Source: a bacterium
Lineage (GTDB): Bacteria > ARS69
DNA: 5,162 bases
Assembly: GCA_025774865.1 (NCBI GenBank)
Contig: JALGZO010000623.1
Span: 1 to 5,162 of the forward strand
Reading direction: 5' to 3'
Part shown: positions 1 to 4,842 of the stretch, piece after piece
How positions within the stretch are numbered: position 1 is the stretch's first letter
How the letters are laid out: each line of letters starts with the position of its first letter
Translations under genes and position numbers: made by a program
The notes under the pieces: model-generated
Databases searched by the model: none
What the model was told of the DNA's origin: nothing
The model's input: only the letters and a program-made list of their open reading frames with translations

Positions 1-861
1 TACCTGCACGTTGTTCCCGAGGGCGTCGGTCACGTAGAGATGACCATCGGAATCCAGCGCAATGGCTCGTGGTCTCGCGAGCGTCCCGATCCCTTGCGGT
101 GACGAGCCGAAGCTGAAGAGAAAGCGTCCGTCCAGGTCGAATGCCTGGACGGCGAAGTGGAAGCTGTCCACGACGTAGACCACGTTGTCAGGGCTGATCG
201 CGATACCGAGGGGGTGGTAGAACTCTCCCTGCGCGTCCCCCCTTTGGCCGAAGCTTCCGAGCAGGCTACCCTCGAGGTCGAAGATCTTGACCGTGTGAAG
301 GCGGGTATCCACCACGTAGAGGCGTTCCCCGTCGGGGCCGAGCGCCAGGCCCACGGGGCCCGCCAGCTCGTCGTCGGACCCGATAAAGCGGAGGAAGCGT
401 CCTTCTTCATCGAAGATCACGACCTTGCCGAGCCCCGCATCGGCCACGTAAACGCGACCACGGTCGTCCAGAACCAGGCTGATCGGCTCGACGAGTGCGC
501 CGTGAGGTCCCAGGGAGTTGAAGAATCGAAGGCGCCCCGTACCCAGATCGAACCTCATCACGCCCTTGCGGGCGGTGTCCACGACATGCAGCTTGTCGCC
601 GTCGTCGCAGGCAATGCCGTAGGGCTTGGCCAGGGATTGATCCGCCGGAGCGCCGAAGAGGAAGTCCTTCAGCCGGGCCGACACGCTTCGGGGAAGACTC
701 GCGCTCCCGTAGATGCTCCTTTGATAAGTGATCATGGGCTCGGCCGGCGGCGGGGGCCAGCTGATGTCGGCCGTTGGTGAGGGCGCACGGCTGCAGCCTG
801 CCGTCGCCGCCAGGGCGACGAGAGTACTCGCCAAGAGCCGGATGTCGCGCTTGTCCATCAT
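1..861 (-). CDS. NHL-repeat six-bladed beta-propeller, probable lipoprotein (3' end beyond the window)
   Basis: 287 codons are present and the frame is still open at base 1, so the C-terminus is missing. Residues 7-22 are a hydrophobic signal segment ending in T-A-G-C, so Cys23 could be lipidated. The lipobox is imperfect because Thr replaces Leu at -3. A Pro-rich linker follows (WPPPP at 35-39), then NHL-type blades near 78-113, 124-160, 167-204, 215-251 and 262-287. Each reads roughly P-x-G-I-A-x-D-x-x-G-x-x-Y-V-x-D-x-x-x-x-x-V-x-x-F-D-x-x-G. Five blades are visible and a sixth probably lies beyond the edge. The ATG overlaps the upstream cytochrome stop by one base (TGATG) with no clear Shine-Dalgarno, so translation is probably coupled. 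A second ATG at 858 is possible. NHL propellers are generally binding or scaffold modules. An outer-membrane or periplasmic partner of the adjacent cytochromes is inference. Confidence 0.87.
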   Translation of the reverse strand, partial: MMDKRDIRLLASTLVALAATAGCSRAPSPTADISWPPPPAEPMITYQRSIYGSASLPRSVSARLKDFLFGAPADQSLAKPYGIACDDGDKLHVVDTARKGVMRFDLGTGRLRFFNSLGPHGALVEPISLVLDDRGRVYVADAGLGKVVIFDEEGRFLRFIGSDDELAGPVGLALGPDGERLYVVDTRLHTVKIFDLEGSLLGSFGQRGDAQGEFYHPLGIAISPDNVVYVVDSFHFAVQAFDLDGRFLFSFGSSPQGIGTLARPRAIALDSDGHLYVTDALGNNVQV

Positions 862-2045
862 CACTGTTGGTCCGGATGGCACCCGACACAGGTGCTCTCT
901 TCGTCCGTGCGCAGCAGGTGCTTGGCCGCGCTGTAGTGCGGATCGTGGCAGCTCACGCATTCCAGCTGTCCACCCACCGTGAGACGCAGGCTGTACTGTT
1001 CCTTTCTTCTCGGCTTCACGTTGTACGGATGACCGTGATACGCGAGATCTTCCTCCTCGGTGTGGCAGTTGATACAGAGTTCCTGGGAGTCCTTCACCAG
1101 CACCCATCGGTTGTTCGTCGCGTGGGGATCGTGGCAGGCGGTACAGGTCCCCCCGGCGAACGGATGGTGCACGGTGCCTTGCTCGCCCAGTTCGGCGAGA
1201 TCTGAATGGCAGTAGAGACACAGGAGCGGCACGGGACTCTGCAGACTCTTGTCGTAGCGAGAGCCGTGCGGATCGTGACAGATCGTACAGGCCCCTCCGG
1301 CCACCGGGCCGTGAATGTACTGCTGCGCGAATTCCCCGATCTTGTCCTTGTGGCACCGATAGCAAGGGTTCATGTCGGAATAGACGCCGGCCGAACGGAA
1401 CGTCAGGTCCTCGGCCACTCGATGACAACCCACGCACTCGCCTTGCTGCCCGGACCCCAGGTGCATGCGGAACCGTTCCCGGATCACGCCGTGGCATTCG
1501 AAGCACCGCTCGCTGTCGCTAATCACTGACTCCTCCTGCCCGACGTGACAGCCCACGCAGAGCGTCGGGGACTCCGTCCCGTGGAACGAATAGCCCTCGA
1601 AGAGGCGCTCGTACTTTCCCGGGCTGCGTGGCCCGCACAGTACTTCGACCGAACCTGCTTTCTCGTCCGCGAGAGATCCGTCGCTGTCCAACGGGATCAA
1701 CTCGATGTTGTTGAGCCCGTACGGAAGCCAGACCAGCGTGTGGAACACGGAGTCCTTCACCGCCACGGTCTCGGTCCGCACCCCGTTGAGCCGCACCTCG
1801 ACGGCCGTTGATCCCCCACGACCGACGACGTGCAACCGGTCCCGTTCGGTGCTGACGTGTTCCGGTGGTGTCAGCACCTCGAGTCCCACGGCGGTCACGG
1901 GTCGCGACGCCAGCCCCAGTACGAGGTATGACAAGATGCCGAACTTCTTCGCGTGATTCTCCTTCCACCAAGGCAGACGCACGTTGGGTCCGGAGATCTC
2001 CCCCGGACCCAACGGATTAGCCAACTCTGTCGGACTGCCGATCAT
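861..2045 (-). CDS. Decaheme c-type cytochrome with N-terminal Ig-like domain
   Basis: Predicted secreted electron-transfer protein. Counting from the ATG at 2045 (394 aa), CXXCH motifs begin at residues 163, 181, 204, 228, 253, 276, 301, 324, 363 and 386, ten in all. Three are CHDPH doubled-CXXCH forms. The heme region holds eleven further His (155, 195, 245, 260, 293, 294, 308, 337, 339, 370, 376), enough for bis-His ligation of ten hemes. Residues 56-137 are heme-free and resemble an Ig-like beta-sandwich (V-R-L-N-G, then F-H-T-L-V, then G-L-N-N-I-E). A Sec signal lies at about 33-52: KK, the hydrophobic run FGILSYLVLGLA, then V-T-A as cleavage site. The start is uncertain. ATG 2045 is used here because it is the only in-frame ATG after the upstream stop, but it puts 32 odd residues before the KK. 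A strong AAGGAG at 1959-1964 points to initiation near 1952. GTG 1982 is another option. The product is firm; the N-terminus is not. Confidence 0.92.
   Translation of the reverse strand: MIGSPTELANPLGPGEISGPNVRLPWWKENHAKKFGILSYLVLGLASRPVTAVGLEVLTPPEHVSTERDRLHVVGRGGSTAVEVRLNGVRTETVAVKDSVFHTLVWLPYGLNNIELIPLDSDGSLADEKAGSVEVLCGPRSPGKYERLFEGYSFHGTESPTLCVGCHVGQEESVISDSERCFECHGVIRERFRMHLGSGQQGECVGCHRVAEDLTFRSAGVYSDMNPCYRCHKDKIGEFAQQYIHGPVAGGACTICHDPHGSRYDKSLQSPVPLLCLYCHSDLAELGEQGTVHHPFAGGTCTACHDPHATNNRWVLVKDSQELCINCHTEEEDLAYHGHPYNVKPRRKEQYSLRLTVGGQLECVSCHDPHYSAAKHLLRTDEESTCVGCHPDQQ
1959..1964 (-). promoter_or_regulatory. Strong Shine-Dalgarno (AAGGAG) before the Ig-decaheme cytochrome
   Basis: The minus strand reads AAGGAG, then AATCAC, then GCG AAG AAG TTC in the reading frame of the cytochrome. 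With a six-base spacer, the expected start codon is GCG at 1952-1950. A GTG there would open a typical signal peptide beginning M-K-K-F-G-I-L. The first cytochrome of the cluster uses just this arrangement (AAGGAGG, 7 bases, GTG AAA CGG). Assignment as the functional ribosome binding site is inference, because no canonical start codon follows it. Confidence 0.55.
1982..2014 (-). repeat. Perfect 12-bp inverted repeat (intercistronic hairpin)
   Basis: Arms CGTTGGGTCCGG (1982-1993) and CCGGACCCAACG (2003-2014) are exactly complementary around a 9-base loop. The stem is GC-rich and should fold stably in the transcript. It lies between the stop of the first cytochrome (2056) and the AAGGAG at 1959-1964, leaving 17 bases between hairpin and Shine-Dalgarno. 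No T-run follows on either strand, so it is not a classical intrinsic terminator. A role in mRNA stability, processing or partial attenuation is inference. Confidence 0.75.
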
Positions 2046-2055
2046 GCCGTCCGGT

Positions 2056-3201
2056 CTAGTTCGTCGAATGGCAGGCCTGGCAGATCTCGTTGTTCGAGTT
2101 GTCATCTCTCAGCAGGTATGCCGGAGTCGTCTGGAACCCCTGACGGTGCACCGAGTGGCACGACTCGCATACCATCTCGTTGGCCGTCGCACTGGCCCAG
2201 TCAGCTCCCGCCACACCATCCTCGTCGATCTGGTTTGCCCAGGGCAGAGCCGGATTCAGCCCGCTGTTCATGTTCACGTCAGCCGGTTGGCCCGTGTAGT
2301 GAGTATTCGCGCCGACCGCCGGCGCTCCAGCCTGACTATGGCAGGACAGGCAGTAGGCCGAGTTGGTGTTGTCAGCCATCAGGAGATACCCGGCGGCGGT
2401 CCCCGTCGGGTCGTGAACGTCGTGGCACTTGTCGCACCCACCGACCGGCGTTCCACCCGTCGTGGAGGTCGTCGGGTGCTTCCACTCCGTGCCATCATTC
2501 GTCGACTCGGAGTAGTCGAAGACGTCGGTAGCCGCCACGCCGCCGCTACCCACCGTTCCCTCGGCCGGGGCGGTGCCGTTGTGGCAGGAGATGCAGAAAT
2601 CCCCGTAGTAGGCCCCGGGTTGATTGTCATCCAGGAGGACGGGGTTCGTCAGACCCGCTGGATTCGTCGTCTGGGGCGTCGCCCCGTGCACCGAGTGGCA
2701 CTGAACACACGTGAACGTGGTTCCGTTCGTGAAGTGCGTGATGCCCGCGGTGTGGTCCCCGAGACCCTCAGCGCCAGGAAACTGCGTCGCGTCGTGACAC
2801 GTTTCGCAGTAACTGTTGTTGGTCTCCGTGACTACCAGGAACCGACCCGTGGTGTTCGGGTTCTGATTGTGCACGTCGTGGCAGGACCCGGACGGCCCAC
2901 TGCAGTCCGCACCGACCGTGATGTGTTGTTCGAGCAGAGTGTTGAACGCTGTCGTCGCTCCGATGCTTGTCACGGAACCGTCGTGGCAGGTGTAGCAAAG
3001 ATCCTGCACTCCAGTGAAGGTCCCGCTCGGTGTACTCGCCCAGAGCTTGTCGCCCAGAGCATTGTGCGGGATATGACAGGCGAAGCAGAGTTTCTCACCC
3101 GTCCCCGTCAAGTCGTGGTCCGACCCTTGGATGCCCGCGAGACCCACGACAGGAGTCACGAGCACCGCCAGTCCGGCGGTGATAACCAGGAACCGTTTCA
3201 C
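2056..3201 (-). CDS. Secreted multiheme cytochrome c, five doubled-CXXCH units (nine CXXCH plus one CX6CH)
   Basis: 381 aa from a GTG start chosen because AAGGAGG precedes it by 7 bases; an upstream ATG at 3228 lacks such a site. The signal peptide is K-R, the hydrophobic run to about residue 19, and G-L-A as probable cleavage site near 22. CXXCH motifs begin at 39, 69, 132, 165, 203, 256, 284, 345 and 374. A tenth site, CSGPSGSCH, covers 100-108. The protein is five repeats, each with an upstream His (29, 93, 156, 242, 301), a C-x-x-C-H-x-x-H (extra His 46, 111, 172, 263, 352) and a second CXXCH usually 24-26 residues on (34 in unit 3). A recurrent D-N-x-N segment precedes several second sites. 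This is the doubled-CXXCH cytochrome class, acting in the periplasm or outside the cell. It is Asn/Thr/Gly-rich, with no lipobox or extra membrane segment. The electron donor and acceptor cannot be read from the sequence. Confidence 0.94.
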   Translation of the reverse strand: MKRFLVITAGLAVLVTPVVGLAGIQGSDHDLTGTGEKLCFACHIPHNALGDKLWASTPSGTFTGVQDLCYTCHDGSVTSIGATTAFNTLLEQHITVGADCSGPSGSCHDVHNQNPNTTGRFLVVTETNNSYCETCHDATQFPGAEGLGDHTAGITHFTNGTTFTCVQCHSVHGATPQTTNPAGLTNPVLLDDNQPGAYYGDFCISCHNGTAPAEGTVGSGGVAATDVFDYSESTNDGTEWKHPTTSTTGGTPVGGCDKCHDVHDPTGTAAGYLLMADNTNSAYCLSCHSQAGAPAVGANTHYTGQPADVNMNSGLNPALPWANQIDEDGVAGADWASATANEMVCESCHSVHRQGFQTTPAYLLRDDNSNNEICQACHSTN

Positions 3202-3303: not shown

Positions 3304-4842
3304 TCATCCAACCGCAAGAACGATCACCTCGTTCTGCAGGCGGTTCACCACGTAGAACCGCCCATCCTTGAAGAGCATTCCTCGCGGGGAGGAGAACGCC
3401 CACTCGTCCTCGAGCGTTCCCAGGGCGGACCTCACCTCTCCCTCCGGAGTGAAACTTTGAATCATGTTCGCCATCGAGTCGGACACCCAGATCCGACCGC
3501 TCTCGTCGACTGCGATTCCTTTCGGGCGCGCAAACGTGCCCGCTGACTGGCCGACCTCGCCGAAACTGTTCAGAAACTTGCCTTCCATGTCGAAGACCTG
3601 GACCCGGCAATTGATCACGTCGACCACGCAGATCTTCCCCGACGGTGTGACCGTCAACTCGTCCGGGAAGTTGAACTGCCCCTCTTCGTCGCCGCGTGTC
3701 CCGACAGAGAGCTGAATTGCCCCGTTCTTGTCCGTGATCAGAAAGCGGTGGTTTCCGGTGTCCGTCAGGACGAGACGGCCGTCGTCGAGCACGTGCATTC
3801 CGTTGGGTCTCAGCGCGACGTTGCCGGACCCCGTGTCGACTCGAATCCGACGCAGGAAGCGACCGTCCGGACTGAAGACCTGGATGTCGTTGCGCTTGAC
3901 GTCCGAGACGTAGACCTCGTCTTTCCCGTCGATGAAGAGCGTGAAGGGAAAGAGGAAGCCCCCATCCTCGTAGTCCATTCCCTCGACGGCCGCGATCTTC
4001 TCCCCGACGGTATGGCTGTACTTCCCGCTGGGATCGAAGCACTGCACGATGCCGTTCAAGGTGTCCGTGACGTAGATCGCGCCCTGGGAGTTCACGGCAA
4101 TGTCGGCCGGCTGATTCATGGCGCCCGCGGAACCGGCCTGGTTGATCTTGAAGAGCTGCCTCAGAGCCACCGGCTCCAGTTCCACCCGGTTCTGCTCCGC
4201 GAGCATTGCCTCTTGCTCCGCGAGACTGATGCCGAACCTGACGCTTTCCTCCGCCGAGAGCTCCGTCTCCTCGAACTCCGCGTTCAGGGCGGACAGGACG
4301 TAGTAGTAGGTCGTTCCCTTTTCGAGATTCGTACGATCCACATACCGTGCGCCCTGGGCGTTGCCCACGACTTCGAAGTCCGCGCCCGGTGTCGTGGAGC
4401 GGAAGATGTTGTAGGCGACGGCACCCGGAACGGGATCCCATCGGAGCATGACTCTCTCACCGTCCACCCGCAGTCCGACCCACGTTGGCGGCACGAAACC
4501 GCCGGCATCGCCGGGGATGGTCACGGACTTCTCTGCCGAGAAGACCTCCACTCCGCCTTCGACGATGGCGATCTTGTACTGGTAAGTGGCCCCGGGAGCG
4601 ACATCGACGTCGAAGTGGTGATCCTCGTCCGTCGTGGCGATGCTCACGAAGTCGGCGTCCGCCTTCCGGTAGACGATGTACTCCGTGACCCCTTCGATCT
4701 TCTGCCACTTGAGGCCGACTTTCCCCTTCACGAAGAAGGCGGCCACCAGCGTGGGCGAGTCCGCTTGTGCATGCGCTGAGAAGGCGACGGTCGCCGCGAG
4801 CACCAGGACGCCCAATCGGACGACCGTGATCGAACTTTTCAT
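3304..4842 (-). CDS. Secreted two-FN3 plus NHL six-bladed beta-propeller protein
   Basis: 512 aa, first gene of the cluster. The ATG at 4842 is chosen because AGGAG lies eight bases upstream and a clean signal peptide follows: K at 2, R at 9, hydrophobic 10-22, cleavage after A-Q-A at 27. Extending to the ATG at 4950 would bury this signal behind 36 odd residues. Residues 29-110 and 117-204 look like two fibronectin type III domains (L-K-W then Y-I-V-Y-R, and L-R-W then Y-N-I-F-R, with Y-Q-Y-K and Y-Y-Y-V strands). A short Glu/Ala-rich, probably helical linker spans 205-235. About six NHL blades follow near 241-280, 299-335, 345-380, 390-428, 438-476 and 485-512. There is no CXXCH, lipobox or catalytic motif. 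Both domain types typically mediate protein or carbohydrate contacts, so a secreted scaffold or docking partner for the cytochromes is inference. Confidence 0.92.
   Translation of the reverse strand: MKSSITVVRLGVLVLAATVAFSAHAQADSPTLVAAFFVKGKVGLKWQKIEGVTEYIVYRKADADFVSIATTDEDHHFDVDVAPGATYQYKIAIVEGGVEVFSAEKSVTIPGDAGGFVPPTWVGLRVDGERVMLRWDPVPGAVAYNIFRSTTPGADFEVVGNAQGARYVDRTNLEKGTTYYYVLSALNAEFEETELSAEESVRFGISLAEQEAMLAEQNRVELEPVALRQLFKINQAGSAGAMNQPADIAVNSQGAIYVTDTLNGIVQCFDPSGKYSHTVGEKIAAVEGMDYEDGGFLFPFTLFIDGKDEVYVSDVKRNDIQVFSPDGRFLRRIRVDTGSGNVALRPNGMHVLDDGRLVLTDTGNHRFLITDKNGAIQLSVGTRGDEEGQFNFPDELTVTPSGKICVVDVINCRVQVFDMEGKFLNSFGEVGQSAGTFARPKGIAVDESGRIWVSDSMANMIQSFTPEGEVRSALGTLEDEWAFSSPRGMLFKDGRFYVVNRLQNEVIVLAVG

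Follow-up and report, generated by a model that had tools for sequence, protein, structure and literature searches.

The window, i.e., the whole stretch of 5,162 nucleotides analysed here, carries cytochrome genes and NHL beta-propeller genes on its minus strand (Table 1). Within one of these cytochrome genes the reverse complement of positions 2878-2904, TGCAGTGGGCCGTCCGGGTCCTGCCAC, translates to CSGPSGSCH, a CX6CH sequence in which six residues rather than two separate the cysteines of a heme motif. The gene is read from 3201 to 2056 and probably opens with a GTG codon (3201-3199) lying behind a GGAGG stretch that resembles a ribosome-binding site. With this start CSGPSGSCH forms residues 100-108, in agreement with the numbering of an earlier note on this DNA, while the use of an alternative upstream ATG would give an open reading frame of 390 residues with CSGPSGSCH at residues 109-117.

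Table 1. Features of the window with their positions, strand and the evidence for each
Feature	Positions	Strand	Evidence
NHL propeller protein, truncated at the contig end	1..858	-	Pfam NHL 4.7e-20; continues in contig C687
Neighbouring cytochrome, non-heme N-terminal domain followed by ten plain CXXCH	861..1949	-	Pfam Paired_CXXCH_1 E=9.8e-40, motif list; same place in homologous loci
Decaheme c-type cytochrome (nine CXXCH and one expanded site), signal peptide, probable GTG start	2056..3201	-	Pfam Paired_CXXCH_1 E=1.2e-21
Four-heme N-terminal unit (hemes 1-4), matching the OmcE-type tetraheme cytochrome in heme order; expanded site at OmcE heme 3	2722..3138	-	Profile match with 7TFS, E=2.2e-14; hhalign with the tetraheme protein of the cluster, probability 98%, E=6.6e-14
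Eleventh, dispensable His, H159 (GLGDH)	2752..2754	-	Lost in L040, L076 and 6/9 paralogues
His of CH-D-V-H after site 3, conserved candidate axial ligand	2869..2871	-	H in 24/24 orthologues with the column and 9/9 paralogues
Expanded heme site 3, CSGPSGSCH (CX6CH)	2878..2904	-	Translation; 33 aligned sequences spanning the site; homologues CX5CH, CX6CH, CX10CH or CXXCH
His (EQH) 7 residues ahead of site 3, conserved candidate axial ligand	2923..2925	-	H in 23/24 orthologues with the column and 9/9 paralogues
Fibronectin-III-like and NHL beta-propeller protein, upstream in the cluster	3304..4842	-	Pfam NHL 1e-26; fn3 4.6e-05 but 24.0 bits against a cut-off of 25

The protein carrying the stretched site has around 380 residues and ten sites, and all of its 20 cysteines lie within the heme motifs (nine CXXCH and the CX6CH), leaving no spare cysteine. 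It is a member of the doubled-CXXCH multiheme cytochromes (Paired_CXXCH; PF09699/TIGR01905), scoring 76.6 bits against a cut-off of 20.6 with the Pfam profile and 51.4 bits against a cut-off of 25.2 with the NCBIfam profile for this family. Assignment to the DmsE/MtrA decaheme family (TIGR03508) was rejected, the score of 49.4 bits being below the curated cut-off of 192.2. Structure prediction with AlphaFold2 returned no usable model for the full protein (20 sequences, mean pLDDT 34.1) or for its four-heme N-terminal unit (33 sequences, mean pLDDT 40.8).

In homologous loci the genes follow the order 17-heme cytochrome, NHL protein, decaheme protein, second cytochrome with ten CXXCH, NHL protein, OmcE-like tetraheme cytochrome and a protein of ~700 residues, for which no confident Pfam match was found. 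The window's copy of the second cytochrome (861-1949) has a non-heme N-terminal domain of ~120 residues; its start is uncertain, with no ATG near a Shine-Dalgarno-like AAGGAG. Contig C687 of the same genome overlaps the left end of the window by 47 exact bases and carries (L095:1-4633) an OmcE-like tetraheme gene (66% to the L032 copy) followed by a 708-residue frame without a Pfam match. Another propeller-like protein is encoded on the same contig, where a second OmcE-like gene also begins. The place and length of the 708-residue protein suggest, as a guess, that it is possibly a barrel, while the neighbouring genes point to a role for the decaheme gene that is probably in extracellular electron transfer.

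A scan of genome contigs yielded 19 clear relatives of the decaheme protein, those of the Omnitrophota type being 35-39% identical to it and the others, from MAGs labelled Zixiibacteriota, Krumholzibacteriota, Eisenbacteria and Verrucomicrobia, 49-77% identical. Whole-genome searches added L075, L076, L077/L078 and L079-L081, together with tandem paralogues in Omnitrophota. No relative was found in viral contigs or in PHROGs, and no orthologue in four genomes of the same family. In Omnitrophota genomes the decaheme gene has several paralogues in tandem, e.g., L037:4998-9863 holds three further copies with 11 CXXCH each.

Spacing at the site was counted in an alignment of the 33 family sequences that cover it. 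CX5CH is present in 15 of these, from several phyla (typically CSGDGACH), and CX6CH in three, i.e., the window (CSGPSGSCH), L081 (CSGDASSCH) and L076 (CSGAGTSCH). A single sequence, L078, has CX10CH (CSGGEGGGGTPCH), and the remaining 14 have a plain CXXCH (CNSCH, CDMCH), all of them from Omnitrophota and only there. The L078 copy (1432-1986), with CSGGEGGGGTPCH at the homologous site, is divergent, comes from a Zixiibacteriota-group genome and belongs to a gene that is seemingly split over two contigs with L077. Judged from the aligned sequences, the usual form in the family is CX5CH rather than CX6CH, the window being one residue longer. The earlier note had proposed that homologues be aligned to see whether the spacing is conserved, and an expanded spacing is indeed kept among them; close homologues do not carry the plain CXXCH that would make the window a lone variant or an assembly error, this form being confined to the Omnitrophota branch. 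In a tree built without the columns of the site the CXXCH sequences fall together on one side, with support of 100/100. The spacing states need four changes on this tree, one above the minimum, and gain and loss fit alike; L076 and L078 are long branches whose placement is unsure.

Both cysteines, the histidine and the following x-[VI]-H are kept in 19/19 expanded sequences, and wherever a full-length homologue has an expanded site, the positions of the window's nine remaining sites are all occupied by CXXCH. Across the 18 aligned expanded rows the C, C and H of the site are invariant, as are the 27 C/C/H columns contributed by the other nine motifs, and in the same rows only 34 of 319 columns outside the heme motifs and histidines (~11%) are invariant. 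Set against this background, the invariance of C, C and H argues that the stretched site is not there by chance. A non-canonical CXnCH site (n > 2), with two cysteines and CH conserved in relatives, is thus present in 19 sequences with n = 5, 6 and 10. The earlier note had also relied on the distance from the histidine of the site to the next CXXCH, 24 residues both here and at CDKCHDVH. The two distances are correct (117 to 141 and 269 to 293), but the offset varies between homologues and for this reason we set the argument aside as one of little weight.

Eleven histidines lie outside the motifs, all in the mature part after the signal peptide, which confirms the earlier count of one beyond the need of ten hemes; the surplus one is dispensable. 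The other ten are conserved in almost every orthologue, with the exceptions of L075, which has H55R, and L076, which is without H102 in the aligned column. They are also conserved in 9/9 paralogues, which mostly have eleven CXXCH and are only a loose guide to histidine conservation. Ten hemes with ten distal histidines would fit these counts better than nine hemes.

A further line of evidence comes from the likeness to OmcE. A search of PDB sequences with the family profile returned 7TFS (1.1e-12) and 9YUQ (1.1e-11); we take 7TFS, whose table entry reads 'Cytochrome c' only, to be OmcE of Geobacter sulfurreducens. The profile of the four-heme N-terminal unit aligns to 7TFS in two segments, one over hemes 1-2 and the other over hemes 3-4, and the expanded site 3 lies over CGSCH of 7TFS and CSSCH of 9YUQ. 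The tetraheme protein of the cluster is itself OmcE-like (E=9.5e-21 for the L032 copy), and its profile-profile alignment (hhalign) with the decaheme protein spans all four hemes, site 3 lying over its CTSCH. Sequence homology to OmcE was therefore found across the heme sites, and the OmcE-type tetraheme architecture (~220-230 residues) belongs to the cluster's separate tetraheme gene and not to the window protein.

We consider it likely that site 3 is a tenth bis-His c-heme with both cysteines bonded and a short, length-tolerant loop bulging out, in a decaheme protein of extracellular electron transfer. Since relatives from several phyla keep the stretched site with variable loops, it very probably is a genuine tenth heme site, one overlooked when motifs are counted in the ordinary way. 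The same reading had been put forward in the earlier note, as a real tenth site with an inserted loop, and gains support from the conserved spacing, the alignment to a CXXCH of OmcE and the ten conserved histidines, from which we infer heme attachment. In this secreted decaheme cytochrome the site would be third among the ten points at which heme c is attached, its two cysteines forming thioethers with one heme, the CH histidine serving as the proximal ligand and a conserved histidine as the distal one. The inserted CSG... segment would bulge as a small loop and leave the heme unmoved, probably at the protein surface or at a subunit contact as in heme 1 of OmcZ, and the heme chain of the protein may serve to conduct electrons at the outer membrane or outside it.

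How heme would be attached at such a site bears on the first alternative. In favour of two bonds, maturation has been described as flexible towards additional residues in the spacer (PMC7096707); against them stands a review according to which a CX15CH site requires a dedicated heme synthase (PMC10663686). A linked special heme synthase was sought via PF01578. In G155, which has CX5CH and is a single chromosome, no synthase lies beside the gene and the nearest PF01578 match is ~290 kb away; in Omnitrophota with plain CXXCH (G158, G160) the decaheme gene has a cytochrome c assembly gene (PF01578) at a distance of 2-5 kb. A dedicated cluster-linked synthase finds no support in this distribution, i.e., near plain CXXCH genes and distant in G155. 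It could be argued that the heme is bonded through the second cysteine of SGSCH only, the first being free, in a disulfide or binding something else, given that the two-residue spacing fitted by cytochrome c synthases is lost and that no dedicated synthase adjoins the gene in G155. We regard this as improbable since CS is retained in 19/19 expanded sequences, so that the first cysteine is invariant while beyond CS most of the spacer differs in residue type and in length, no second unpaired cysteine is available in the protein for a disulfide, and OmcZ and MccA/SirA use heme sites with longer spacers.

It is very unlikely that the motif has decayed, leaving a nine-heme protein without heme at this position. 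The spacing does depart from CXXCH and its length does vary among homologues, however C, C and H stay invariant down to ~40% identity (L076), where decay would be expected to cost residues, and the conserved candidate axial histidines number ten, not nine. An assembly error or lone variant, to which the one residue by which the window exceeds its closest relatives (CX6 vs CX5) might point, is scarcely credible when CX6CH recurs in other genomes (L081 and L076), CX5CH is found in 15 sequences of several phyla, and the difference amounts to one in-frame codon.

Beyond the tenth heme itself, we tentatively suggest that these proteins could form an OmcE-related family of long decaheme filaments or conduits distributed over several poorly known phyla. 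At one and the same heme a loop of 0 to 8 extra residues, its length adjustable in evolution, would then tune subunit contact or acceptor access, and the heme would be attached by the ordinary maturation machinery; this wider view is possible but the less likely part of our account. If the tenth site is real, CXXCH counting and the n = 2-5 rule undercount hemes in the OmcE-related decaheme family. There would also be a natural series of 2, 5, 6 and 10 residues at one heme with which to approach the spacer tolerance of cytochrome c synthases, a question that has so far rested on isolated cases, e.g., OmcZ and MccA, as well as the function of the loop. Furthermore, the finding would indicate that uncultured Zixiibacteriota, Krumholzibacteriota, Eiseniibacteriota and Omnitrophota possess an electron-transfer cluster related to OmcE.

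CXnCH sites with n up to 15 are already known. A literature search found no heme paper with 'CX5CH' or 'CX6CH', other spellings and subscription papers lying outside its scope; as far as the literature searched shows, two things are new, the n = 5/6/10 series found at a single homologous heme and the decaheme family, related to OmcE, in which it occurs. Other stretched sites were seen in the genomes searched. The 13-heme cytochrome of the Omnitrophota clusters has a conserved C-terminal CX8CH, which reads CSRTAMGLRCH in L038 (7338-8834), CSGSGLALGCH in L039 (8505-9947), CNTSALGGSCH in L040 (7422-8894) and CDTSALGMSCH in L064 (2639-4096), and a six-heme cytochrome of Hydrogenedentota (L043:4605-5453) has a CX5CH (CAGTMGCH).

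Among known systems, the CX4CH of cytochrome c3 is likewise a moderately stretched motif, and surveys count CXnCH as heme-binding up to n = 4 (PMC5566968) or, in a 2025 survey covering n = 2 to 5, up to n = 5 (PMC12545173). The window (n = 6) and L078 (n = 10) fall outside this rule, and the site lies at another position and in another family. The MccA/SirA sulfite reductases also have a long spacer, CX15CH, in one heme site (PMC6976685), but they are octaheme enzymes in which the site is tied to activity and served by a dedicated heme synthase, whereas neither a catalytic role nor a linked synthase is indicated here.

The likeness to OmcZ is that a single heme motif in an extracellular multiheme cytochrome carries an inserted loop, the spacer being missing in some relatives (PMC9473688, PMC11208441). 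Heme 1 of OmcZ is a CX14CH site whose 14-residue loop contributes to the interface between subunits (PMC9473688), and removal of this loop is reported to suppress the reduction of soluble acceptors (PMC11208441). The loop of OmcZ is longer, at 14 residues, and sits at another heme position, and OmcZ has no sequence or fold kinship to OmcE/OmcS (PMC9473688). The profile searches of PDB sequences that returned 7TFS and 9YUQ gave no entry recognisable as OmcZ. OmcE is a filament protein with four hemes and a CXXCH at heme 3, in contrast to the ten hemes proposed here, the CX5/CX6CH at heme 3 and a protein of ~380 residues. With OmcE (7TFS) and the related 9YUQ the window protein nevertheless shares collinear hemes 1-4, including the N-terminal xHDL and CxxCHxPHNA, and an OmcE-type tetraheme gene stands in the same cluster as the decaheme gene.
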